Assembly (NCBI RefSeq): GCF_003634585.1
Contig: NZ_RBLG01000001.1
Location: forward strand, 930,001-994,000
Direction: 5' to 3'
Source of the DNA: Gillisia mitskevichiae
Lineage (GTDB): Bacteria > Bacteroidota > Bacteroidia > Flavobacteriales > Flavobacteriaceae
DNA: 64,000 nucleotides
Shown: positions 1 to 12,061 of the stretch, piece by piece
Position numbering within the stretch: the stretch's first letter is position 1
Layout: the number at the start of each line of letters is the position of its first letter
The notes under the pieces: generated by a model
Database searches by the model: none
Seen by the model: the letters and a program-made list of their open reading frames with translations, nothing else
Told to the model about the DNA's origin: nothing
Program-made: the position numbers and the translations under genes

Positions 1-890
1 TCACCTTTAACAGTACTTTCTTTAACAGATTTTACATTAAATGGAGGATTTGCCATGACAAAGTCAAACTTTCCATAGCCCTCATAAGGATCACTATCAT
101 AAGAATTGGCTTCTGTAATTTCTCCCCTTAAATTATGCACCAGTAAATTCATCTTAGCCAATCTAACGGTTTCACCCATATACTCTTGACCATATACATA
201 AATATCATTAAGGTCGTGGCCTTCGTGAGCAATGAAATCGGCAGATTGTACAAACATACCTCCAGAGCCACAAGCAGGATCATAAATCTTACCCTTATAT
301 GGTTCTATTACTTCTACTATAAAACGTACTACTGAGGTTGGTGTGAAAAATTCGCCTCCTTTTTGTCCTTCACTCATAGCGAATTTACCAAGGAAGTATT
401 CGTAAATTTTACCAAAAATATCACCTGATGCATCCTTGGGAATATCAGAAAAGGTTTTTAATAATTCTGGAAGGATATCGTCTTTTTTCTTTTCTATTTC
501 AAAATAGGCTTCTGTAGGTAATACATCTTGAAATTTTGCGTCTTGGTGTTTTTCAATACCCTTCATCGCATCTCTTAATGCTTCAGCCATTTTAATATCA
601 CCTGGCAAATTTAATAGGTAATTGAAACGTGCATTGTCGGGTAAATAAAAACCACAAGTAGCCAATGCAATATCTTGAATAGGACGCTCCATTCTGGTGC
701 CCTTTAACTTTTGATATTCTTTTAAAATTTCAGGTTCGTGTTGGCTGTATTTGTTTTCAGCAAACTTTAAGAAAATTAACCCTAAAACTGGAACTGCATA
801 ATCTGATGCTTTAAGCCCACCATGTGCACGCAATGCGTTGGCAGAGTCCCAAAGTTTATCTTCTAGTTCTTTTAATTGTTGGTTGGTCAT
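1..890 (-). CDS. hsdM: Type I restriction-modification N6-adenine methylase subunit (HsdM), partial
   Basis: Reading leftward from an ATG at 888-890, this frame stays open to the window edge, so about 296 N-terminal residues are present. The opening (MTNQQLKELEDKLWDSANAL) is a typical HsdM N-terminal helical domain. It is followed by an S-adenosylmethionine motif DPACGSGG at about residues 204-211 and the catalytic motif NPPF starting at residue 281. Both motifs are intact, so this should be an active adenine methylase that works with HsdS and HsdR. The partner genes are not visible and presumably lie beyond the left edge. Its start is 6 bases past the stop of the receiver-domain gene (897-2060), so it is almost certainly the fourth gene of the operon that begins with the WYL regulator. 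Family assignment is firm; completeness of the system is inference. Confidence 0.93.
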   Translation of the reverse strand, partial: MTNQQLKELEDKLWDSANALRAHGGLKASDYAVPVLGLIFLKFAENKYSQHEPEILKEYQKLKGTRMERPIQDIALATCGFYLPDNARFNYLLNLPGDIKMAEALRDAMKGIEKHQDAKFQDVLPTEAYFEIEKKKDDILPELLKTFSDIPKDASGDIFGKIYEYFLGKFAMSEGQKGGEFFTPTSVVRFIVEVIEPYKGKIYDPACGSGGMFVQSADFIAHEGHDLNDIYVYGQEYMGETVRLAKMNLLVHNLRGEITEANSYDSDPYEGYGKFDFVMANPPFNVKSVKESTVKG

Positions 891-896
891 ATATTA

Positions 897-2060
897 TTAT
901 TCAACTATTTTAATTTCTTTAATGTACGTTTTTGTTCCACATGGACTTGGTATGGTAGTTACCTCAATTTTTTGATCTTCTTTTAACAAAAATTCTGAAA
1001 TTTTATTAGGCAATACTGCTAAGGTAGGATCTTCATTATCTGGTTGAAATGTACCATAACCATTAGAGGATATTCTAGTGATTTTTCCAGAAACCCATTC
1101 ACCTGATAAAGAAGTTGTTTTCTGAACAAGCTCCCATTTTTTTTGATTAATAGATTTAACGGAATTCGCATCTATAAATGGCTTCAAGTAATCTAAAACC
1201 TCTAATAATGAATAGCAGAGAGATTGATACAAAAAGGTATTATTGGCTTTTCCTAAATATGTGTCTGCTCCTAATTTATTCCCGTTATTATGTGATGCAT
1301 CTTGTGTAAGACTAATTAAATGACGTATAGATTCTGCTATTACAGGATGAATTAATTTCCCTTCATATAAATATTGATCATTGCTGCCTGCTAAGAAGTA
1401 ACTCGCTCCATTTATTGCACCATTTCCATTTTGAATTTCATCTGGAATTAAACCTAGCTTATTTAACTTATCAAATGAAGCTTCTAAAAGCTTACGAATT
1501 GGCAACAAACCATCTTGTGGGTTAGAAATGTTTTCTGGATTTTCGATATCTTTTATTAGCTGAAGAACTCTCTCAAAATGTTTAGCTCCTAAATAATTCT
1601 CTTCGCATACTGCAAAAGGGTTTGGGTACTTGTGTTTTAATTGGGTTAACTCCTGTTCATCAGCTGCTTCTTTAATAGCTTTAAATAAGGCTTGATTATC
1701 TTTACCTTTAATAAAGATGTTTTCATCAGCTAACATTTCCCTAGCACTGGAATGTTCGTCTTTATCTATGTACCCAGAGTAAATAAAATAAGGAATCTTT
1801 TTACAATCAGCTAAACTGTTAATCTTTTTGATGGAATTTTGCAATCCAATTAAACCCGCCTTTTCATCTTCAGTTTCATTATATACCATGGCATCTAAAA
1901 TAACAGCTTCGTAATATTCAATTTTAGAAGATAACTCTTCCATACCTAGTTTAGAAGTTTTAAAAAATGTGATGTTTATCCCTTCTAAATAAGCAGACTC
2001 CAAAAACGCATCTTGTTCTTCTGCGTTATCATCTACCCATAATACTTCATACTTATTCAT
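897..2060 (-). CDS. Response-regulator-like protein with C-terminal OB/cold-shock-like domain
   Basis: The protein has 387 residues. The first 125 look like a receiver domain with all the key residues: the acidic pair D10-D11 (VDDN), a phosphoacceptor candidate D56 (AVILDAM), S95 (YSG) and K118 (FIKG). The middle is helical and I do not recognise it. The last 69 residues (319-387) contain GKITRISSNGYGTF and resemble an OB or cold-shock fold that binds nucleic acid. There is no standard DNA-binding output domain. It lies 3 bases from the stop of the methylase-kinase fusion and 6 bases before hsdM. The obvious inference is that it receives phosphate from the kinase-like half of the fusion and acts on the restriction-modification machinery or on nucleic acid. 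The receiver call is strong, the OB call moderate, the partnership inferred from position. Confidence 0.75.
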   Translation of the reverse strand: MNKYEVLWVDDNAEEQDAFLESAYLEGINITFFKTSKLGMEELSSKIEYYEAVILDAMVYNETEDEKAGLIGLQNSIKKINSLADCKKIPYFIYSGYIDKDEHSSAREMLADENIFIKGKDNQALFKAIKEAADEQELTQLKHKYPNPFAVCEENYLGAKHFERVLQLIKDIENPENISNPQDGLLPIRKLLEASFDKLNKLGLIPDEIQNGNGAINGASYFLAGSNDQYLYEGKLIHPVIAESIRHLISLTQDASHNNGNKLGADTYLGKANNTFLYQSLCYSLLEVLDYLKPFIDANSVKSINQKKWELVQKTTSLSGEWVSGKITRISSNGYGTFQPDNEDPTLAVLPNKISEFLLKEDQKIEVTTIPSPCGTKTYIKEIKIVE

Positions 2061-2063
2061 TCA

Positions 2064-4619
2064 CTATATTGTTTCAAGGTTAAATAGAAATTTAAATCCA
2101 ACAGGAAATTCACTTTTGGGCTCATCAAACACCTCTAATTTGCAGTCAAAATGTTTTGCGATTTCAGCAACTTTCCATAAACCAATACCAGTTCCAGCAG
2201 TTTCACCTGCTTTTTCCCCTTTTACATCATAGTTTTTAGCAATTCCTAGGGGGAAGGCTTTACCATTATTCTCAAAATTAATTTCCAAAAAGCCTTCGAT
2301 ATAAGCCACGGATACTCGAAAAACATAGGATTTACTTTTATCTATAAAACCATGATTAATAGCATTCTCTAAAATATTATTATATATTTCTTCCAGGTCA
2401 TTCTTTGAAATGCTAATTAAAGGTTCTCTTCCTTGGAAAGTTGCTTTTTCAACAATAAATTCGACGGAAAACAGATCATTTTGAAGGCCTCTTTCCTTAC
2501 ACTCTTTCAAAAATTTGATGGGATTTAATATTTCAGGATCGTCATATTTCAATTCATTGGTTATATTATCTACATAATAAATAACCTTATCTAAACTTTC
2601 CTGTAATCGAAGAAAACGCTTTTCTACAGTAACACCTCTCCTTGGATCAATTACTTCATCGAATTTTAATACACCATTATTCAGTTCCATCATTTTGGTT
2701 AACACGTCTGCAGATGACTTAACATTATTAAGGTGCTGCATAATATTATGCTTTTTAGAGCCTAAATCTCTCATTTGAGCCTCCTTAAGTTTCGCTATCT
2801 CTTTTTCAAAACCTAAATCTTTGGCTAAGGTCTGAAAACGACCTTGGCGCTCTTGCTCAACAATTTCTTTTTGTTCCTTTAGAGAAGGGGTTATAATTAG
2901 AATATTTAATAAATCCTCACGTCTAATCATTGGTATACTAGTACCCGTCCTAAAAACTTCAACCTGGAGTTTTATATAATCTTTATGAAGCTCTGCTACT
3001 AAATATTCCAATAATATTTTAGATTGATCTACTTTGAAAGCATAAATATTATTGGAAGAATAAGCTATTTTAGTGTTGCTTGAAGCGTAGAAAGTTGGCT
3101 TAATTTTCGTTCCAAATCTAGACAATAAAAGCACATTATTCTCTAACAACCTAAAGTTAGATCTTAACTCACCTTCAGATAAATCATCTGAATTTAATAA
3201 GTAAGAATCAGGGTTAGAAGATAACTCTTTTATGGTAACTCTTTTATATATAACATTGGATTGTAACCCTGATGGTCTAACATATTCTAATATTTCGTTT
3301 AATGATATAGCCTTACTTAAATCTACACCAGGAACTTCTTCAAAACCAACATATCTAGCTGGTGTTAATATATAATCATTTTGGGCAATTTCTTTTAAAC
3401 TTGCGGTATTAGAAAAACCAATTGTATGAGGTAGGTCTAATTTGTTTTCTTGCCAAGACCTAAATAAGGTGGTTATTACCAGGATGCTTTTCTCATCTAG
3501 ATAATTTTGAGTCCCATGCGGCATTTTAACGCCCAAATCTGAAGCTTCAATAAATAGAACTTTTCCTTTATGCGCCTTGTTTTTATTAAAGAGCCAAATG
3601 CTAGTTGGAATACTTGAATTGGTTAGAAGTTGAGAAGGTAAAGTAATTATAGCCTCCACTAGATCCGCATCAATGATCTTTTTGCGTATTTGCCCTTCTG
3701 TTCCAGTGGAGGATAGTGAGTTGTTATTAAGTATAATAGCCCCTTTTCCACAAGAGTTCAAATGGTAAATTAAATGTTGAATCCAAGCGAAATTGGCATT
3801 AGATTTTGGAGGTAATCCAAATGTAAATCTACGATCATTATCTTCTTCATTAAGAATATGATTTCTAATATTAAAAGGAGGGTGGGTTATTACAAAATCG
3901 GCCTTTAAATTAGGGAATTGATCTTGAGTTAAAGTATCGCTGGGTTCTCCGAAACTGATTGAGTCACTATTATTAAAGGCAAACCTAAGTTTCGCCAACG
4001 CAAGTGTTGTTGCATTAAATTCTTGGCCATAAAAGTTAAAAGTTCCATTAGGGGAATTATCTGATGTCTTTTGAAAAAAACCTCCTACACCACATGCTGA
4101 ATCTAATAAAACGCCTTGAGTAGGGTTAAGTAATTCAACCATTAACTGCGAAACTGAATTAGGAGTATAATAATCTGCTCCAATCCTTCCCTCGAATTTA
4201 GCGAAGGAATTTAATATTCTTGAAAAAATATTTGAAAATTTAAAATCATCATTTTTAAAATCTAAATCTGAGATCATTATAAAAAGCTGGGCAATTAATT
4301 CCGAGTCGTTTTTACGATTAAAGTTATTTTCAAAATTAAAGGAGCTGAAAACATTGCTTAATTGCATATTCTCCCTTTCAATTATATTAAAAGCCTTCCA
4401 TAACTGATTTATAAAATCGTTATTATATACATCGTTAATTAAATTATCCCACTTGGCTTCTGGAGCAATTTTAATAGCATTAAAAGAATTTTCGGATAAT
4501 TTATCATTTGCAAATTTTAAAAATATTAAAGCAGCTAGAAGCTCTTTTAGATCTCTAATTTCTCTTTTCCCACGGACAAGGTTTAAAAAATCCCAAATTT
4601 TATTTTCAATGTCAATCAT
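2064..4619 (-). CDS. Fusion of N6-methylase-like, HsdS-like recognition and histidine-kinase-like ATPase domains
   Basis: This 851-residue protein is a three-part fusion. Residues 1-400 resemble HsdM: an N-terminal helical region, a SAM-binding motif DSACGVGG at 173-180, and a motif IV that reads HPPF at 246-249 instead of NPPF, so the catalytic Asn is replaced by His. Residues about 440-590 look like one HsdS target-recognition half, ending in the usual LKEQKEIVEQE helix. Residues about 615-850 look like a sensor kinase core: a helix with H624 and H629 (KKHNIMQHL) as phosphoacceptor candidates, an N-box at about 739-757 (NDLEEIYNNILENAINHGF), a G1 box ENNGKAFP and a G2 box GTGIGLW at 809-815. 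No membrane segment is visible. It sits between the WYL gene and the receiver gene. It may be a methylation-state or DNA-binding sensor rather than a methylase. Domain calls are good; function is inference. Confidence 0.8.
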   Translation of the reverse strand: MIDIENKIWDFLNLVRGKREIRDLKELLAALIFLKFANDKLSENSFNAIKIAPEAKWDNLINDVYNNDFINQLWKAFNIIERENMQLSNVFSSFNFENNFNRKNDSELIAQLFIMISDLDFKNDDFKFSNIFSRILNSFAKFEGRIGADYYTPNSVSQLMVELLNPTQGVLLDSACGVGGFFQKTSDNSPNGTFNFYGQEFNATTLALAKLRFAFNNSDSISFGEPSDTLTQDQFPNLKADFVITHPPFNIRNHILNEEDNDRRFTFGLPPKSNANFAWIQHLIYHLNSCGKGAIILNNNSLSSTGTEGQIRKKIIDADLVEAIITLPSQLLTNSSIPTSIWLFNKNKAHKGKVLFIEASDLGVKMPHGTQNYLDEKSILVITTLFRSWQENKLDLPHTIGFSNTASLKEIAQNDYILTPARYVGFEEVPGVDLSKAISLNEILEYVRPSGLQSNVIYKRVTIKELSSNPDSYLLNSDDLSEGELRSNFRLLENNVLLLSRFGTKIKPTFYASSNTKIAYSSNNIYAFKVDQSKILLEYLVAELHKDYIKLQVEVFRTGTSIPMIRREDLLNILIITPSLKEQKEIVEQERQGRFQTLAKDLGFEKEIAKLKEAQMRDLGSKKHNIMQHLNNVKSSADVLTKMMELNNGVLKFDEVIDPRRGVTVEKRFLRLQESLDKVIYYVDNITNELKYDDPEILNPIKFLKECKERGLQNDLFSVEFIVEKATFQGREPLISISKNDLEEIYNNILENAINHGFIDKSKSYVFRVSVAYIEGFLEINFENNGKAFPLGIAKNYDVKGEKAGETAGTGIGLWKVAEIAKHFDCKLEVFDEPKSEFPVGFKFLFNLETI

Positions 4620-4638
4620 TAATCACAATTTTATTAAA

Positions 4639-4680
4639 GCATACTTAATTGTATTTTACAAATGTATTTTTAAAGTATGC
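4639..4680 (-). promoter_or_regulatory. Dyad flanking a -7-like element upstream of the methylase-kinase fusion
   Basis: In the 66-base gap between the WYL gene and the fusion gene, GCATACTT (4639-4646) and AAGTATGC (4673-4680) form a perfect 8-bp inverted repeat. Between the arms the minus strand carries TACATTTG (4666-4659), which matches the Bacteroidota -7 consensus TANNTTTG. No good -33 TTTG is visible at the expected distance. The layout would suit an operator for the WYL regulator or another repressor, giving the three downstream genes a promoter of their own. Binding is inference. Confidence 0.45.
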
Positions 4681-4685
4681 AGTAG

Positions 4686-5696
4686 TTATGCATGTTCGTA
4701 TTTTTCTTTCATTTGTGTAATTTTTCTCCTCATTTCAACTCTAACTTCTGCAGGTGAAATGACCTCTAAATCTTCACCAAACGATAAAAGTAATTGATAC
4801 AACTCTGGATTGGGAATCACTTTAATAGTGATTGTTTTGCCAGACACATCGGTTTTGTCCTTTTTTTGTGACCTGTGTAAAGGTTTCGTTAGTGCGTAGT
4901 TAATTCGGTTCTCTGTAAATTTGAGTGTTATGTTTATTGGTAAAGCGCCCTCAGGTTTTGAAACACCAATAATATCATCAAAATAATCTAACCAGTTAGT
5001 TTCACTAGATTTAAAACTTGTACTCAACTCATCTATAGACAAAATTCTATCTAAGGGATAATTGGAAAGGGATTTGTATAGTTCATTAAACCCAAACAGA
5101 AACCATCGATTATTATATTGCTTTAAATGATAAGGACAAATAATGACTTCTATTATTGGTTTGCCATAAGGCTCATACTCTAACTTAGCTTGTTTTTGTT
5201 TTAGAATTAAATTAAACAAGACACTAATATGTTCTCTTCCTTTTAAATCAAAATTTTCTTGATAACTAACGATACAATTGTCGTCACTTGAAACTAAATC
5301 AAAAGCTTGTTCCATGCGCGGAATTAATTCCTCAATCCAGCTAAATTCTTCTCTATGCTTATATCTAGAAAGAATAGCAAGTGTAGTCTCTAGTTGCTCT
5401 GAATCATATTGATTTAACGGATGACTAGCTAATGAAAAGTTTTTACTCTTATATCTAAAAACACGCTTGTTATAATGCTTTAAATCTTCATCTAACTCAA
5501 TTCTGTATCCAGCATCAGATTTCATATAGGCAATATCATATTGTAACTGCCTTAATTGAACCCCTTCTGTGCCAATCTCAATTAATACCTCATTAATCTC
5601 ATTTAACAAATCATCATAGGTATAAACGCGATTAAAATTACTGAAGCAGCGATCTAGAATAGTATAACGGATTTGGGCATGCTTGTTAGTAGCCAT
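4686..5696 (-). CDS. WYL-domain transcriptional regulator
   Basis: The protein has 336 residues. The N-terminal 85 residues are a helix-turn-helix-like domain of the kind found in Bacteroidota WYL regulators (YDDLLNEINE, LRQLQYDIAYMKS). The WYL domain spans about 145-225, with the signature region CPYHLKQYNNRWFLFG at 187-202, where the name-giving triplet reads WFL. A C-terminal extension domain follows. WYL proteins sense ligands, often nucleic acid or nucleotides, and commonly regulate phage-defence loci. It is the first gene of the leftward defence operon, 66 bases before the methylase-kinase fusion. Family is certain; the ligand is unknown. Confidence 0.92.
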   Translation of the reverse strand: MATNKHAQIRYTILDRCFSNFNRVYTYDDLLNEINEVLIEIGTEGVQLRQLQYDIAYMKSDAGYRIELDEDLKHYNKRVFRYKSKNFSLASHPLNQYDSEQLETTLAILSRYKHREEFSWIEELIPRMEQAFDLVSSDDNCIVSYQENFDLKGREHISVLFNLILKQKQAKLEYEPYGKPIIEVIICPYHLKQYNNRWFLFGFNELYKSLSNYPLDRILSIDELSTSFKSSETNWLDYFDDIIGVSKPEGALPINITLKFTENRINYALTKPLHRSQKKDKTDVSGKTITIKVIPNPELYQLLLSFGEDLEVISPAEVRVEMRRKITQMKEKYEHA

Positions 5697-6187: not shown

Positions 6188-6532
6188 ATGGTAAGAATCG
6201 TAGATTACAAGTCCTATCAAAATAATGAGGGCGAAGATTTCTTTGTATTAGTAGTACAAGGTGAAATTTCAATAGTAAAAAGTAAAGAATCAGGGAGAAC
6301 CTATCTCACAAAACAAACAGCAAAAGTCTCTTGTACTTTTGATGAAGAAACCTGTAAAGATCTAGTTGGGACTGAAATTCCAGGGAAAATAGCAAGAGTT
6401 GAAGTAGATCCTTTTGAATATACAAATGAAGAAACGGGAGAGGTGATTGTTTCAACACACCAGAATCAGCTCATAAGTGAAGAAGAAGTTATACTTATGA
6501 ATAATCTTCAAAGAGAAGAAACTGTAATTTAA
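6188..6532 (+). CDS. Conserved hypothetical protein of Bacteroidota mobile elements
   Basis: The 114-residue acidic protein has a beta-rich, OB-like pattern (VVQGEISIV, TAKVSCTFDEE, GKIARVEVDPF) and no membrane segment. I recognise the style from small genes preceding RecA-like ATPases in flavobacterial integrative elements but cannot assign a family. It is the first gene of the rightward module and is closed by a good terminator at 6555-6581, so it may be expressed at higher levels than the genes behind it. A single-strand-binding or recombination-accessory role is possible but unproven. Confidence 0.6.
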   Translation: MVRIVDYKSYQNNEGEDFFVLVVQGEISIVKSKESGRTYLTKQTAKVSCTFDEETCKDLVGTEIPGKIARVEVDPFEYTNEETGEVIVSTHQNQLISEEEVILMNNLQREETVI

Positions 6533-6554
6533 ACATTTCTCTATCAAAGGTAGA

Positions 6555-6581
6555 AGGGCTCCATTAAGGAGCTCTTTTTTT
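6555..6581 (+). terminator. Rho-independent terminator
   Basis: AGGGCTCC and GGAGCTCT pair as an 8-bp stem with one G-U around the loop ATTAA, followed by a run of T. It lies 22 bases after the stop of the 114-residue gene. Confidence 0.8.
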
Positions 6582-6642
6582 ATGTCTAATCGTGATCATT
6601 AGTGATTATAAAATTTCTGATGATACAAACAACTAAAATATT

Positions 6643-7533
6643 ATGAAACTACAACAAGCACAAAGAAGCCAAGTAAAACTAAGAATAGGTTTAAGTGGTC
6701 CTAGTGGATATGGTAAAACATATTCAGCTCTTTTGTTAGCTTTTGGGATTACACAGGATTGGAAAAAGATCGCAGTAATAGATACTGAAAACAACTCTGC
6801 AAGTCTGTACTCCCACTTAGGAGATTTTAACGTGCTGAGCTTGGAAGAACCCTATACTCCGCAGAGATACATTACAGCTATAGAATTATGTGAAGATGCT
6901 GGAATGGAAATTATTATTGTTGATTCTATCTCCCATGAATGGAACGGAAAAGGAGGATGTCTTGAAATGCACGAGAAATTAGGTGGTCGCTTTCAAGATT
7001 GGGCAAAAATCACTCCTTACCATAATTCTTTTGTGGATGCTCTTCTACAATCTAAATGTCATGTTATCACATCAACCAGACGTAAGGTTGATTACTCCCT
7101 TGACAGAGATATGAGTGGAAAAACTAAAGTTATGAAATTGGGAACAAAGGAAATTACCCGAGAAGGGTTTGAATATGAACTCACGGTCAACTTTGAACTT
7201 ATTAATGACAATCATTTGGTAAAAGCTTCAAAGGATAGAACAGGTCTTTTTATGGACAAGCCAGAGTTTGTAATAAATCAAGCCACAGGAAGGAAACTTA
7301 AAGAATGGTGTGCCGAAGGAGTCTCTTTAAATAAAGCTTCTGGAGAGATTCAAACATGTATTACTCTAGAAGGTCTAAAACACATCTATGGGAAGTATCC
7401 ATCCCTACAAAAAGAGATTTATCCGCTTGTGATAGAGCGAAAGAAACTGATTGAAAGTGGAGTAGATCAGGTGATTGAAGAAGAAAAAATTGAACAACTA
7501 AAACCAGAAAAGAATGGAGTTAATAACGAGTAA
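6643..7533 (+). CDS. RecA-like AAA ATPase (phage/Sak4-type nucleotide-binding protein)
   Basis: The 296-residue protein has a clear Walker A motif GPSGYGKT at residues 19-26 and a Walker B strand IIIVDS at 90-95. The spacing matches the RecA-core ATPases annotated as phage nucleotide-binding proteins, which include Sak4-type single-strand annealing or recombination proteins. DTENNSASLY after the second strand is typical of that group. It overlaps the DUF3871 gene by 20 bases, so the two are translationally coupled. Likely job: ATP-dependent recombination or replication support for the mobile element. The ATPase call is secure; the precise subfamily is inferred. Confidence 0.85.
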   Translation: MKLQQAQRSQVKLRIGLSGPSGYGKTYSALLLAFGITQDWKKIAVIDTENNSASLYSHLGDFNVLSLEEPYTPQRYITAIELCEDAGMEIIIVDSISHEWNGKGGCLEMHEKLGGRFQDWAKITPYHNSFVDALLQSKCHVITSTRRKVDYSLDRDMSGKTKVMKLGTKEITREGFEYELTVNFELINDNHLVKASKDRTGLFMDKPEFVINQATGRKLKEWCAEGVSLNKASGEIQTCITLEGLKHIYGKYPSLQKEIYPLVIERKKLIESGVDQVIEEEKIEQLKPEKNGVNNE

Positions 7534-8497
7534 TACCCATCAAAATCAAATTATAGAAGAAGACCACGTAATTAAAAAAGCAAATGGCAACTTTATTGAA
7601 GCCAATACTTTAAAGGTGACACTTGAACATCTAAAGAATGAATGTATAATCCCTGTGTTTTCAAAGGATAATGAGAGCACTATAAGTCACTATGAGTTTG
7701 TGCTAAAAACAAAGGAAATAGTTCAGGATTTATTTCCTGAATTTAGTGTTTCTGAACCAGATATTAGGACCTCTCATATCATAAAGGGAAGAATTCCATC
7801 TGCCATTGGAAAGCCTGCTAAGGAGCTTAAAGAGCACGAGAAAACCTTGTATTATGAGAGGTGTGCATTCGTAATGGAAATTCCAGAAGTGGTAGAAAAT
7901 GTAAATGGTAATAAATTAGCATTAACTATCGGAGGAGTTAGAGCTTATAATCAAGAGAATCTTTTTAGTAAGAAGAGTCCTGAGAAGTTCAAAGTGTTCA
8001 TTGGATTTAAGAACATGGTGTGCACAAATCTATGCATTAGTACAGATGGTCTAGCAGATCAAATTAGAGTGAACTCATTAAACCAGCTATCAGAAGCAGT
8101 GGAAAAATTATTGGGGCAGTATGACAGGAATAAACATCTTGGTATGATGGAGAAAATGAGTAGACATGAATTTACACAGTCTCAATTTGCTCACTTCATT
8201 GGCAAGCTGAGAATGTACCAATTTATGGATAAAACCGAGCAAAAACAGTGCTTTCCTATTTCCATAAATGACAGCCAAATAAATACGGTGGTAAAAAATT
8301 ATTATCACGACCCTAATTTTTCTTGTAGTGGGGATGGTTCGATTAATATGTGGAGGCTATATAACCTTTTCACAGAAGCTAACAAGTCCTCCTACATTGA
8401 TAACAATTTTGAACGTAATGTAAATGCATACGACTTAACGAATAACCTGGTTTATTCACTGCAAAACCAGTCTTCAAATTGGTTCCTACATAATTAA
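7514..8497 (+). CDS. DUF3871 family protein
   Basis: The 327-residue protein matches my memory of DUF3871, a Bacteroidota family almost confined to integrative elements and plasmids. Recognisable segments are the N-terminal NGNFIEANT, the central LTIGGVRAYNQENL and GFKNMVCTNLCISTDG, and the C-terminal WRLYNLFTEANKSSYID followed by a short tail. The family looks distantly like phage proteins that manipulate DNA, but its biochemical role is not established as far as I know. It overlaps the ATPase gene by 20 bases. The ORF is full length for the family. Confidence 0.75.
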   Translation: MELITSNTHQNQIIEEDHVIKKANGNFIEANTLKVTLEHLKNECIIPVFSKDNESTISHYEFVLKTKEIVQDLFPEFSVSEPDIRTSHIIKGRIPSAIGKPAKELKEHEKTLYYERCAFVMEIPEVVENVNGNKLALTIGGVRAYNQENLFSKKSPEKFKVFIGFKNMVCTNLCISTDGLADQIRVNSLNQLSEAVEKLLGQYDRNKHLGMMEKMSRHEFTQSQFAHFIGKLRMYQFMDKTEQKQCFPISINDSQINTVVKNYYHDPNFSCSGDGSINMWRLYNLFTEANKSSYIDNNFERNVNAYDLTNNLVYSLQNQSSNWFLHN

Positions 8498-8564
8498 TTA
8501 TATAGCGTTTAGAGTCATTCGAGAGGAAGTCGAATAAGAATTCATTTTATCTAAATGTTAAGTT

Positions 8565-8819
8565 ATGACAGAGCAGGAACTAGCAGAAATACTCAAATAT
8601 AGCTCACCTAACACCCTCTACGTAGTTGCCTGGAACAATCTGCTTACACAACTTTTTTGTCCTTTTAAGGTGATAGTAAAACATCATATAGGAGAATTAA
8701 AGATAGGACAAAAAGTGTGGGTAGATAACGTCAAGGTTACTTCGAGTCTTACCACAGTTTTTATTGTAAAGGGGCGGGCTTACTACTTTTATCATTTTGA
8801 AATTTTAGATCCTGAATAA
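8565..8819 (+). CDS. Small hypothetical protein
   Basis: The 84-residue ORF encodes a compact beta-rich protein (YVVAWNNLLT, FIVKGRAYYFYHFEIL) with no signal peptide or membrane helix. It is in line with the replication module and its coordinates do not conflict with another good ORF. The family is unknown to me. Confidence 0.5.
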   Translation: MTEQELAEILKYSSPNTLYVVAWNNLLTQLFCPFKVIVKHHIGELKIGQKVWVDNVKVTSSLTTVFIVKGRAYYFYHFEILDPE

Positions 8820-8920
8820 TATTAGGGTCGGGAGATTATGCTGTATTTTGAATAAACAAGCTTTTGAGATGGTTTTCTCCTAAAACAAAACCACTGAAAA
8901 AGAAATCATGATTATATTTG

Positions 8921-8956
8921 CCAACGTAGTTTTATTGTAGGGCTGCGTTGGTTTTT
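8921..8956 (+). terminator. Terminator-like hairpin, next to a -7-like element
   Basis: CCAACGTAG (8921-8929) pairs with CTGCGTTGG (8943-8951), 9 bp with one G-U, followed by five T. TATATTTG, a -7 match, lies immediately before it at 8913-8920. The hairpin separates the 84-residue gene from the RteC-like gene and argues for the ATG at 8969 rather than the TTG at 8948, which would fall inside the hairpin. Confidence 0.6.
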
Positions 8957-8968
8957 ATTAATTGGATT

Positions 8969-9817
8969 ATGACATCACTAAAATTATTAAAAGAAAAAAT
9001 TGTCGCAATAGGTTCAAAATCTTTTTTCACAGGAAACGTAAATTCATTCTGGAATTCATATGCAATAGCTACCGACCAAGTTGTCGGAGAATGGGATGGT
9101 ACTGAGAGCTTTAAACTAACACTTTCATTGTCAAACTCCACTGTACCAGAAATTCATCATTACAGTTTGAATATGCAAATTCAAAATACGATTAAGCAAA
9201 GATTTGAGGATTTAATAGAATTGCTTCATGATGAACTTTCAGTGATGACTAATGAAGGAATAAAGGCTAACCGAGTAAATAGAATTTTAAACAAAATTAA
9301 GGAGACCGAAATTACACTTCAGGTATCAGACCTGGATGAGAAATATAAGAATCTAATCATTGAAAATTTTGAGCTCCATCGCGTGAAATTTGAAAGTGAA
9401 TTTTCTTATTTAAAACCTCTTTTAAAAAGTAATAAATTAGGGAAAAATGGATTTAAATATATTATTAAGAATTACGAGAATTTTAAACTTTTTTATCAAA
9501 ATCTTAAAAAAAATGGACTAATTCCTGCCGATATAAAAATTGGCAAATTAGAAAGGATCTTCACCAATAATACTAACTCGAAAATTGAATGGGCAGGTAA
9601 TGCAAAAGAAACAAACTATTTTTTTAAAACTCTGAAAGCAAAAAAAATCATCACAGGCCCCATATGGGTTACGGTTGAAGAGAACTTTATTCTGCGTAAC
9701 ACCAAGGGTATAGAAATTACAAGAAAGCAAATGCGTTCACTTGATGTATTTAATGAAAATATTAAAGAGGATAAAATTAGAAAAAGAGAATTACGCAGCA
9801 TTATTGATTTGCTTTAG
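8969..9817 (+). CDS. RteC-like protein of integrative elements
   Basis: From the ATG at 8969 the protein has 282 residues. The C-terminal part (KIEWAGNAKETNYFFKTL, then WVTVEENF, then a basic DKIRKRELRSIIDLL end) follows the pattern of RteC proteins: a W-G pair, a leucine-rich helix, a F-containing helix and a basic tail. RteC is known from Bacteroides conjugative transposons, where it controls excision genes; here the similarity is only by eye. The middle is helical (RFEDLIELLHDELSVMTNEG). It ends at the first of the TCTGC repeats and precedes the primase gene. The open frame extends to a TTG at 8948, which I reject because it lies in a hairpin. Confidence 0.5.
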   Translation: MTSLKLLKEKIVAIGSKSFFTGNVNSFWNSYAIATDQVVGEWDGTESFKLTLSLSNSTVPEIHHYSLNMQIQNTIKQRFEDLIELLHDELSVMTNEGIKANRVNRILNKIKETEITLQVSDLDEKYKNLIIENFELHRVKFESEFSYLKPLLKSNKLGKNGFKYIIKNYENFKLFYQNLKKNGLIPADIKIGKLERIFTNNTNSKIEWAGNAKETNYFFKTLKAKKIITGPIWVTVEENFILRNTKGIEITRKQMRSLDVFNENIKEDKIRKRELRSIIDLL

Positions 9818-9985
9818 TCTGCACTAGTCTGCAAAATGCAATTATTATTTGAGTTATCTAATTCCCTAAAAATATATAAATCAACTTTATACCAATCATA
9901 TCAGTCTGCAGGATTTGAAAAATATCAAAAGGCAGACAGATTCTTTCTAAATATTTGTTTCAGAAAAATAAGCAGAATAATCTGC
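9815..9985. repeat. TCTGC repeat cluster (iteron-like) before the primase gene
   Basis: TAGTCTGCA occurs at 9815-9823 and 9825-9833, CAGTCTGCA at 9902-9910, the inverted form GCAGAC at 9932-9937, and GCAGA/TCTGC as a small dyad at 9972-9985. All lie in the 185-base gap between the RteC-like gene and the primase/helicase gene. The first copy overlaps the stop codon. Position and spacing suit an origin or a regulator-binding cluster. No coding sequence in this gap looks real. Confidence 0.45.
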
Positions 9986-10002
9986 ATTAAGAAACAAATT
10001 AT

Positions 10003-11418
10003 ATGGAAACAATTAATTCCCCACTCTTTGATTTTCTCGTGGAGAACGAGAAAGGCACTAAAAAGATCCTACATGCCAAACTCATATACTTTCTCGAAGC
10101 TATGGGTTTCAATCACGCCATCCTAGATGGACGTCTTGAGCTTATTCGCAACACTAATGGAATTATTAGGAGGATATCAATAATGGAAATTATCGATTTT
10201 GTTAGAACTACTTTTGAAGATAACGAGCTTAAAGAATTCTTAGATGTCTTCGCTGAAAGCCCAAGTCGTTATGTAGGACCAGCTAAACTGTCGTTATTAA
10301 AAACAGTTGATTTAATTAATGATCGTGACCCTAGAAATTCATCTAGATTTTACTTTCAAAATTGCTTTTGTGAAATCACGGCAGAAAGTATAATGATAAA
10401 TTCTTATGATAAATTAAAAGGTTCCATTTGGGAAAATAGGATAATCAAAAGAGAATATAAAAAGTCCAAGAAGGATTTTGTAGGTCAATTTCATCAATGG
10501 AGCATGAATATTACAGGAAATAATCCTCGAAGATTTAGGGCTTTGCAGTCATTCATAGGCTACCTATTACATAGAAATAAAGAAAGGGGCGAGAACAAAG
10601 CAATAATTCTCTATGATGAGAAAATGACCGAGGATGGTAAAGCTAATGGTAGAGTGGGCAAAACCTTATTAGGTATGGCTTTAGGGCATTGTAGAGATGT
10701 TGTAATGAATGATGCCAAAACGAAAAATTTAAAAAGTGATTTCGCTAATGAACTTGTAACCAGTACAACAGATTGTGTTTATTATGATGATTTGCCCAAA
10801 AGCACAGATTTTGAAAACTTCTATTCCTTTATTACGACGGGGGTGGAAGTCAATAAAAAATACAAAGCTGCTTTTAGGATTGAAGACTGGCGGTCACCAA
10901 AATTAATTATCTCATCAAATTATTATGTTTTAGGAGACGGAGGAGATTCCGATAGAGCTAGAAGGTACGAGTTTGAGATCTCGAATTATTATAGTGCAGA
11001 TTTTACACCTGAACAGGATTTTGGAAATCGTTTTTGGGATAGTAAATGGCCTGAAAGTGAATGGAATAATTTCTTCGAATTTATGATGAAATGTCTTCAG
11101 ATATATTTACTAGAGGGTTTAATAGAGGTAGAGCCAATAAATCTAACTACCAAGAAGATAAAGGATTCCACCTCTTCTGAATTCTTAGAATTTGCAGCCG
11201 CTTTTTTCACAATTGGTGAAAAATTGGATAAAAGAGAATTAGAAACGAATTTTAAATTTCTGTATCCAAGATGGAAACACTTATCACCTCATGGCTTTCA
11301 TAAGTGGTGTGGTATTTATGCTCTTAACACGGGTCTTAATTATAGACCGTGGTCGTCAGGAGGGGAGTATTATTGTGAATTCACAAAAAAAGTTGAAAAT
11401 GATAGAGATGGTGAGTAA
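10003..11418 (+). CDS. Primase/helicase-like protein with SF3/D5-type P-loop
   Basis: The 471-residue protein has a P-loop GRVGKT at 216-221, a Walker B-like strand DCVYYDD at 257-263 and a later PKLIISSNY segment near 303-311 that matches the sensor position of SF3 helicases. The N-terminal 150 residues are probably a divergent DNA-binding part. Such proteins drive replication of phages, plasmids and integrative elements, and its place among a RecA-like ATPase and DUF3871 fits. There is no separate Toprim motif that I can see, so it may be helicase only. Its last codons overlap the start of the GIY-YIG gene. Confidence 0.75.
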   Translation: METINSPLFDFLVENEKGTKKILHAKLIYFLEAMGFNHAILDGRLELIRNTNGIIRRISIMEIIDFVRTTFEDNELKEFLDVFAESPSRYVGPAKLSLLKTVDLINDRDPRNSSRFYFQNCFCEITAESIMINSYDKLKGSIWENRIIKREYKKSKKDFVGQFHQWSMNITGNNPRRFRALQSFIGYLLHRNKERGENKAIILYDEKMTEDGKANGRVGKTLLGMALGHCRDVVMNDAKTKNLKSDFANELVTSTTDCVYYDDLPKSTDFENFYSFITTGVEVNKKYKAAFRIEDWRSPKLIISSNYYVLGDGGDSDRARRYEFEISNYYSADFTPEQDFGNRFWDSKWPESEWNNFFEFMMKCLQIYLLEGLIEVEPINLTTKKIKDSTSSEFLEFAAAFFTIGEKLDKRELETNFKFLYPRWKHLSPHGFHKWCGIYALNTGLNYRPWSSGGEYYCEFTKKVENDRDGE

Positions 11419-12061
11419 AATTTATAAAGCGGTAAATAAGTTGACTAATAAGGTTTACATAGGCTCAACTGCTCGGTCGTTGAAGCAACGGACAAAAGAT
11501 CATCTTCAAAAAGCCAGGAATAATATTGGAGGAAGGTTTCAAGAAGCAATTGAGACATATGGACCAGAGACTTTTGAATGGACGGAAATAGATACGGCTG
11601 GAGATGCTAACGAATTGGCGGAAAAGGAGAAGCAATATATAATACAATATAATGCACAAGAAGAGGGTTATAATTCTGACCGCGGAGGAGGTTTCCAAAA
11701 AAACATCTATCAATATGATTTAGAAACTGGTGCCATCTTGTCAACTTTTCCATCACTTTCTGAGGCAGCGGAATCAGTTGGAGTAGATCGAAGGACTATA
11801 AGCAAAGCCTGTCTTGGAGAAATTAAAAACTGTAGAGGATATTCTTGGAGTTATAATTTGGGGGATAATTATTTCTCAGAAGTTGATCAACGAAAAAGGA
11901 AGGTCTCACAATTTAATGAAAAAGGTTCATTTCTGAATTCTCATGGTTCTGTGGCTGAAGCGTCAGCAGCCACAGGAATAAATAGATCTTCAATCGCTAA
12001 ATGCTGTAGAGGAGTTTATAATAGTGCGGGGGGATTTATTTGGCAGTACCAAAATGAATGA
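11399..12061 (+). CDS. GIY-YIG homing endonuclease with NUMOD1 repeats
   Basis: Starting at the ATG at 11399 the protein has 220 residues; MVSK at 11408 is an alternative start. KIYKAVNKLTNKVYIG is the GIY-YIG motif (with KIY and YIG), followed by RSLKQRTKDH and a catalytic-type E later (LAEKEKQYI). Two NUMOD1-type helix modules follow: IYQYDLETGAILSTFPSLSE with VGVDRRTISKACLG, and VSQFNEKGSFLNSHGSVAE with TGINRSSIAKCCRG, each ending in a W-containing turn. This is the layout of free-standing homing endonucleases. The start overlaps the primase gene by 20 bases in another frame. The frame is open further upstream to 11291 but that part would lie inside the primase gene and has no domain. Confidence 0.9.
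   Translation: MIEMVSKIYKAVNKLTNKVYIGSTARSLKQRTKDHLQKARNNIGGRFQEAIETYGPETFEWTEIDTAGDANELAEKEKQYIIQYNAQEEGYNSDRGGGFQKNIYQYDLETGAILSTFPSLSEAAESVGVDRRTISKACLGEIKNCRGYSWSYNLGDNYFSEVDQRKRKVSQFNEKGSFLNSHGSVAEASAATGINRSSIAKCCRGVYNSAGGFIWQYQNE

Follow-up and report, generated by a model that had tools for sequence, protein, structure and literature searches.

Detocs, reportedly described by Rousset in 2023, is said to be a two-component-style anti-phage signalling system with a receiver-bearing effector, built from other sensor and effector domains than those treated here and having no methylase part. Here we describe a pair of genes from Gillisia mitskevichiae, located within positions 1 to 5,696 of a 64,000-nucleotide stretch of contig NZ_RBLG01000001.1 (referred to as the window), which encode a fusion of methylase-like, HsdS-like and histidine-kinase-like parts and, behind it, a receiver protein, in an operon of the type I restriction-modification (R-M) kind. 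Two-component-like pairs linked to R-M, HEF_HK (PF19191) and Response_reg_2 (PF19192), were published in 2021 (Bellieny-Rabelo, PMC8011034). As far as the available part of that paper goes, they resemble the present pair in being soluble, adjacent kinase- and receiver-like genes beside R-M systems with conserved key residues, and their neighbours are above all type II R-M genes, with type I elements too. Unlike the present fusion, HEF_HK kinases mostly carry an N-terminal HATPase_c_3 domain related to paraMORC, and that part of the paper showed no fusion of a kinase with a methylase or a specificity domain. Neither PF19191 nor PF19192, both assumed to be present in the Pfam copy searched, matched the window proteins, eight receivers (E ≤ 1) or 24 kinase parts (E ≤ 0.1). 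The initial annotation of this stretch knew of no described system in which a methylase/recognition module is fused to a kinase core next to a receiver; as a caveat on novelty, R-M-linked two-component-like pairs as such are already published, with different domains.

Other described systems share single traits with the pair. CapK/CapS (Chambers 2026, PMC13373217) likewise consists of a GHKL kinase and a partner, is portable and heads varied immune operons, and the available part of the same paper names WYL regulators as another portable switch family in front of immune operons. There, CapK is activated by single-stranded DNA and phosphorylates Ser on a STAS-type repressor, whereas the present pair has a predicted phospho-His core and a receiver. 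GHKL ATPases are found in R-M neighbourhoods, as here, also in the case of MORC and paraMORC (Iyer 2008, PMC2292703); in the part of that paper available, the MORC module is a GHKL plus an S5 domain. The fusion matches the DHp and HATPase domains of histidine kinases. With type I R-M systems, whose HsdM, HsdS and HsdR are encoded in its own operon, the fusion shares a resemblance to HsdM plus half an HsdS, but it differs from type I HsdM in never having both methylase motifs and in carrying a kinase. The MADS proteins (PADLOC mad2/mad5, NCBIfam MADS2/MADS5) gave weak matches to the methylase and S-like parts of the fusion, which at 36.6 and 22.6 bits did not reach the cut-offs of 720 and 400 for MADS2 and MADS5. 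A figure legend in PMC13092281 lists HATPase and REC among the domains of predicted, unvalidated systems. A methylase/specificity/kinase fusion with a receiver was not found among the titles and abstract openings listed in searches of open-licence literature, which is no proof of absence.

The fusion protein and its receiver

Our preferred interpretation, which we consider moderately probable, is that fusion and receiver together make up a two-component switch of the cytosol, which is portable, is attached to defence operons and uses a pseudo-methylase as its sensor. Its basis is observed, namely the architecture, the conserved residues, the loss of methylase motifs in the sequence, the adjacency of the two genes, their joint divergence and their changing neighbours; from these we infer phosphotransfer within the pair, its signal and its output.

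In Pfam, the fusion matched N6_Mtase (1.5e-77), HATPase_c (1.4e-06), HsdM_N (3e-06) and Methylase_S (5.7e-05), the latter in one stretch (residues 486-588), and a profile of eight fusions matched the HsdM of EcoR124II in the structure 7bst with an E-value of 5e-57. The methylase-like, HsdS-like and kinase-like domains named in the initial annotation are therefore present, but the recognition part is just one domain, about half an HsdS, and the catalytic Asn of the methylase is missing. The catalytic motifs were scored by column alignment with HsdM as D[PAS]xxGx[GA] for motif I and NPP[FYW] for motif IV in 29 readable fusions, that of the window included, of which two (loci L052 and L054) come from the same genus and are not independent. 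NPP[FYW] was present in 6/29 fusions and motif I in 7/29, but both together in 0/29, whereas the HsdM-like proteins of more than 430 residues from the same stretches (split HsdMs left out) had NPP[FYW] in 23/23 cases and both motifs in 20/23. The first residue of motif IV is widely variable among the 29 fusions, the two nearest relatives reading HPPF and QPPF where the window fusion reads HPPF. In the strongly diverged fusion of L045, both motifs are lost and a trace of N6_Mtase is still detected by Pfam (3.1e-10). Since the two motifs are never kept together, the methylase part of the fusion looks dead.

We take the C-terminus of the fusion for the core of a histidine kinase that has diverged. 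A profile built from the kinase parts of 23 fusions and a kinase-like protein from locus L048 (see below), 24 in all, covered the DHp and HATPase domains of the solved kinases 4i5s (4.6e-14), 4u7n (2.1e-13) and 5c93 (2.3e-13), while its best match, 3a0r (3.8e-17), begins behind the H-box. By column, the H-box His is kept in 28/29 fusions; the remaining one (L056) was cut by the script at a point behind the H-box, and VEHSLRP is visible in its sequence. N752, N784, G786, G811 and G813 are kept in 29/29 fusions, and Pfam HATPase_c matches 22/24 kinase parts. The possibility considered in the initial annotation, that the C-terminus is an unrelated GHKL ATPase devoid of a phosphoacceptor, was rejected because the H-box His is conserved and aligned to solved histidine kinases.

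At E ≤ 1, the receiver protein of the window matched none of the families in Pfam, NCBIfam and PADLOC, and eight of its relatives gave just three scattered Pfam matches with E-values of 0.075 or worse. Its AlphaFold2 model, with a predicted local distance difference test score (pLDDT) of 76.5, consists of a domain with the receiver fold, a middle domain made of helices and an OB-like tail of five strands, the latter assigned by eye and from the order of its strands. A Foldseek search with this model yielded 32 PDB matches at E ≤ 0.001, which were receiver domains (FixJ, KdpE, PorX and others); the OB-like tail had no match of its own in this search. The phosphorylation residues are intact, as previously annotated: D11, D56, S/T95 and K118 are kept in 33/33 receivers including that of the window, and D10 is D in 30 and E in 3 of them. 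Further conserved residues are H257 (33/33), R189 (32) and E193 (30). The tail is absent in 14/33 receivers, which are 291-316 residues long, and the broken protein of locus L058 is likewise tailless. An assignment of the middle domain to DUF4145/HEPN was rejected, as an hhalign comparison with the N-termini of five HsdR proteins gave a non-significant probability of 0.4%. An R-x3-E and a H are common to the middle domain and the HsdR N-termini; this is a lead only.

Distribution, joint divergence and neighbourhoods

With the single window protein as query (E ≤ 1e-5), receiver matches were detected in 6/296 genomes of the order, and with receiver profiles (E ≤ 1e-8) in 13/395 genomes of the phylum, 14/395 of the class and 7/299 of the family. 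Since these genome sets overlap and the profile searches scored four to six first-look candidates for most genomes, the counts are lower bounds. Outside Bacteroidota, plasmids, phages, viral contigs, one genome-contig scan and two genomes were covered. The plasmid matches, obtained with two different receiver queries, were three records of one Myroides plasmid type only, the phages yielded one faecal, phage-labelled and unverified record, and one scan of viral contigs yielded no relative. The resulting 33 distinct loci include this plasmid type, the phage-labelled record and two genomes from the genome-contig scan. Two further candidates from that scan, L064 and L065, were dropped as non-members, their two genomes giving no full match and one weak one (67 positions, E 2e-4), and L062 and L063 were removed as copies of L016 and L018.

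A readable fusion is encoded in 29/33 loci, beginning at a contig end in L050. The others are L035, whose contig (3.1 kb) ends within the kinase part, the broken copy L058, and L048 and L053, which have no fusion. In 29/29 loci with a readable fusion, the next gene on that strand, at a distance of -35 to +12 bases, is that of the receiver, which is more than chance; the initial annotation had asked whether this order is constant. Most loci were found via the receiver, which favours this count; searches from the fusion side found the receiver behind 4/4 full-length matches (L060-L063) and 3/3 plasmid records (one type). A WYL homologue lies within the fetched stretch of 24/33 loci, and so does an HsdM-like gene in 24/33; the nine loci lacking HsdM are L020, L045, L050, L051 and L075, i.e. 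5/29 of those with readable fusions, as well as L048, L053, L035 and L058. In the broken copy (L058, 577-5397), WYL, methylase-like, recognition, kinase, receiver and tail pieces are arranged in order as separate short open reading frames (ORFs).

All four genes were readable in 18 loci, of which 17 were used for the comparison of distances, L054 being omitted as it is of the same genus as L052 and resembles it in the sizes and order of the genes; the first run comprised 16 loci, and L019 was added afterwards. The distances of the whole fusion and the receiver correlated with rho 0.78 (permutation p 0.0005, 16 loci). With 17 loci, rho was 0.48 for the kinase part versus the receiver (p 0.001; 0.40, p 0.002, after removal of the two closest relatives) and 0.55 for the recognition domain versus the receiver (p 0.002), compared to 0.02 and 0.06 for kinase part and recognition domain versus WYL and -0.03 for each of them versus HsdM. 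The fusion and the receiver diverge jointly; HsdM and WYL do not follow.

The same exchange of partners is seen in single comparisons. Window and Gelidibacter are 64, 60 and 72% identical in WYL, fusion and receiver but 26% each in HsdM, HsdS and HsdR, while the respective values for window and Flavobacterium sp. HJJ are 37, 36 and 36% versus 67, 40 and 76%. Recognition domains of HsdS proteins that differ in specificity usually diverge strongly. The recognition domain of the window fusion shares 56% identity with that of Gelidibacter and 59% with that of Arenibacter, although between the HsdS of these relatives and the HsdS of the window identity is just 26% and 21%, respectively; the fusion therefore seems not to share the target of its neighbour. 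Word counts in the stretches upstream of 22 WYL genes were not accepted as evidence of a common operator: AAAATTA, the most frequent word of seven letters, occurs in 12/22 (mean 9.1 and maximum 11 in 30 shuffles) and the commonest 8-letter word in 7/22 (5.7 and 7), and an operator was dismissed because all top words are A/T-rich.

The defence genes next to the pair change from locus to locus. NERD/UvrD-type helicases lie beside it in L019, which has an HsdM too, and in L020. L045 has an AAA_15 ATPase and a UvrD helicase, with NsnB and RTasHel as best and GajA/GajB as weaker PADLOC matches, and in L050 (3403-12424) the pair is followed by an AAA_5 ATPase together with a WGR protein of large size (PADLOC WGR_XIII, E 2e-295). 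L075 is a three-gene cassette lacking HsdM, with a C5-methylase-like ORF, recognised by eye at 3071-4276, about 5 kb off. In L048 (6759-9974), which is a CRISPR locus of type III (Csm), a receiver and a kinase-like protein devoid of a methylase part are flanked by Csm5 and Csx1, and in L053 (421-1311 of a 5.4-kb contig), a receiver with no adjoining kinase precedes Cas6 and RT-Cas1 (best PADLOC match Cas1_IIIb). Receiver and kinase parts being unlinked from the methylase, which according to the initial annotation would refute its idea, is seen in 2/33 loci, both of them CRISPR. At E ≤ 0.01, the first kinase profile did not detect the kinase-like protein of L048, its later strong score came from the profile that includes this very protein, and its Pfam HATPase_c score of 18.6 bits is under the cut-off of 26.4; the kinase assignment is accordingly weaker than for the fusions.

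Operon layout and surrounding genes

The ORF list confirmed the four tightly packed leftward genes at the annotated places, separated by 66, 3 and 6 bases in the order WYL, fusion, receiver and HsdM, all on the minus strand (Table 1). HsdM, previously annotated as normal, has both motifs. Past the window edge (locus L006), where the initial annotation had proposed to look for hsdS and hsdR and where both do occur, the operon continues with the full HsdM (708 residues), HsdS (415), two DUF262-type proteins (611 and 774), HsdR (1094) and a 235-residue ORF that has no Pfam match. Pfam identified SWI2_SNF2, HSDR_N and ResIII in HsdR and GmrSD_N (8.6e-31) in the 611-residue protein, whereas HsdS and the 774-residue protein were named from sequence likeness outside the Pfam scan. 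hsdM, hsdS and hsdR together make this a type I R-M operon, HsdM and HsdR being assigned by Pfam and HsdS by likeness.

Table 1 Positions in the window of the operon genes and of selected parts and codons of their products.
Feature	Position	Strand	Remarks
WYL/WCX regulator, 336 residues	4686..5696	-	First gene of the operon; Pfam WYL 3.7e-10, WCX 8.1e-11
Fusion protein, 851 residues	2064..4619	-	HsdM_N, N6_Mtase-like, one recognition domain, DHp-like helices, HATPase_c
Pseudo-methylase part, fusion residues 4-428	3336..4610	-	Pfam HsdM_N, N6_Mtase
His246 codon, position of the catalytic Asn of HsdM	3882..3884	-	HPPF replaces NPPF; alignment with HsdM
Single HsdS-like recognition domain, fusion residues ~431-590	2850..3329	-	Pfam Methylase_S 486-588; PADLOC Specificity_I; outer limits estimated
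His624 codon, predicted H-box phosphoacceptor	2748..2750	-	Aligned to His of SHELRTPL in 4i5s, 4u7n, 5c93
HATPase_c catalytic domain, fusion residues ~736-851	2067..2414	-	Pfam 740-846
Receiver protein, 387 residues	897..2060	-	Receiver 1-145, helical middle domain 146-306, OB-like C-terminus ~320-387
Asp56 codon, predicted phosphorylation site	1893..1895	-	Kept in 33/33
HsdM, first 296 of 708 residues (gene cut by window edge)	3..890	-	DPACGSGG and NPPF motifs present

The DUF262-type gene pair (L006, 6363-10527) lies between hsdS and hsdR, and both genes have close relatives in L016 and more distant ones in L044. Mobile-element-like genes adjoin the operon (window 6188-12061), encoding an AAA_24 ATPase and a DUF3871 protein by Pfam, together with a sub-threshold XtrA-like match and, by eye, a GIY-YIG-like ORF. 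ORFs resembling the AAA_24 and DUF3871 genes were recognised by eye near the cassette in L074 and L075.

Proposed mechanism and alternative explanations

We propose that the sensor derives from an HsdM plus half an HsdS which would have lost its methylation chemistry with the domains still recognisable, and that the C-terminal helices of the fusion may lead into the DHp-like helix pair and then into the kinase domain. The pseudo-methylase core would be occupied, most likely by DNA or a DNA imitator, and a change in occupancy would be relayed via the helices to autophosphorylation of His624, from where the phosphate might pass to Asp56 of the receiver. Phosphorylated receiver would then act via its helical middle domain and OB-like tail, which would probably touch proteins or nucleic acid directly, and would thereby change how active the adjacent defence genes are; as no DNA-binding domain was recognised in the receiver, the output is probably not transcriptional. 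The WYL protein is likely a transcription switch by analogy with CapW/BrxR, which are named in the available part of PMC13373217, and would be a separate, interchangeable one that is inherited separately.

Several points weigh against this interpretation. NPP[FYW] and motif I each survive in a minority of the fusions (6/29 and 7/29), so that some binding of S-adenosylmethionine (SAM) or of a base may occur. The AlphaFold2 model of the fusion, with a mean pLDDT of 49, is too poor to show the link from the recognition domain to the DHp. Pfam HisKA matches 1/24 kinase parts, and weakly (0.048). The kinase and recognition parts within one and the same fusion correlate with only rho 0.36 (p 0.005), so either the distances are noisy or the fusion parts recombine. 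As to the nature of the signal, SAM sensing as a general one was disfavoured because motif I matches in just 7/29 fusions.

Among the alternatives, the fusion may be an integrated decoy, in which the dead methylase core baits anti-restriction proteins of phages or plasmids, for instance DNA mimics like Ocr and ArdA, the kinase being triggered once they bind. Such a decoy would fit the retention of the domains in spite of the lost catalytic motifs, and it would account for the linkage to unrelated type I systems and for the steady recognition domain; according to the available part of PMC12707154, the core of type I methylases is bound by Ocr, for which PARIS is known as a detector. Against it speaks that relatives also occur next to AAA, helicase or CRISPR genes, a setting in which anti-restriction proteins are of less importance, and we regard it as rather doubtful. 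The same reserve applies to the broader idea that a relay of a decoy, or of a foreign-DNA sensor, might be a plug-in common to restriction, other nuclease-based and perhaps CRISPR defences.

The initial annotation had suggested that the fusion senses the recognition or methylation state at the sites of HsdM and HsdS from its own operon, the receiver holding or releasing restriction. The shared operon with HsdM, HsdS and HsdR and the HsdM-like and recognition domains kept in the fusion favour this idea, but it did not hold up well: the methylase motifs are lost, rho between recognition part and HsdM is -0.03, and five readable fusions have no HsdM-like match nearby. The recognition domain, steady in relatives whose HsdS differ from that of the window, does not track the neighbouring HsdS, which argues against sensing of the own operon's methylation and leaves this explanation unlikely.

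Type I methylases use two M subunits. The fusion could thus be a regulatory second M subunit of the HsdM-HsdS complex, with the kinase part merely serving as an ATP-driven conformational switch, for which the HsdM_N and recognition domains would be suitable; the conservation of the phospho-His position and of all receiver chemistry residues, and the lack of co-divergence between HsdM and the fusion, make this quite improbable. Methylase activity of the fusion by way of an atypical motif IV is hardly credible, since, despite motif I in the window fusion and its two nearest relatives and NPP[FYW] in six fusions, the two motifs do not occur together in any of the 29 and motif IV begins with widely varying residues.

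Compared to the systems described so far, the new elements are the dead-looking methylase part, the joint divergence of fusion and receiver, and the members that lack HsdM or lie in CRISPR loci. If the interpretation as a portable two-component switch is true, a worn-out restriction methylase became a two-component sensor that is plugged into different defence systems, and a histidine kinase would have obtained its input domain from a sequence-recognising DNA enzyme. This would make it testable how cells time the action of restriction or other defence enzymes.

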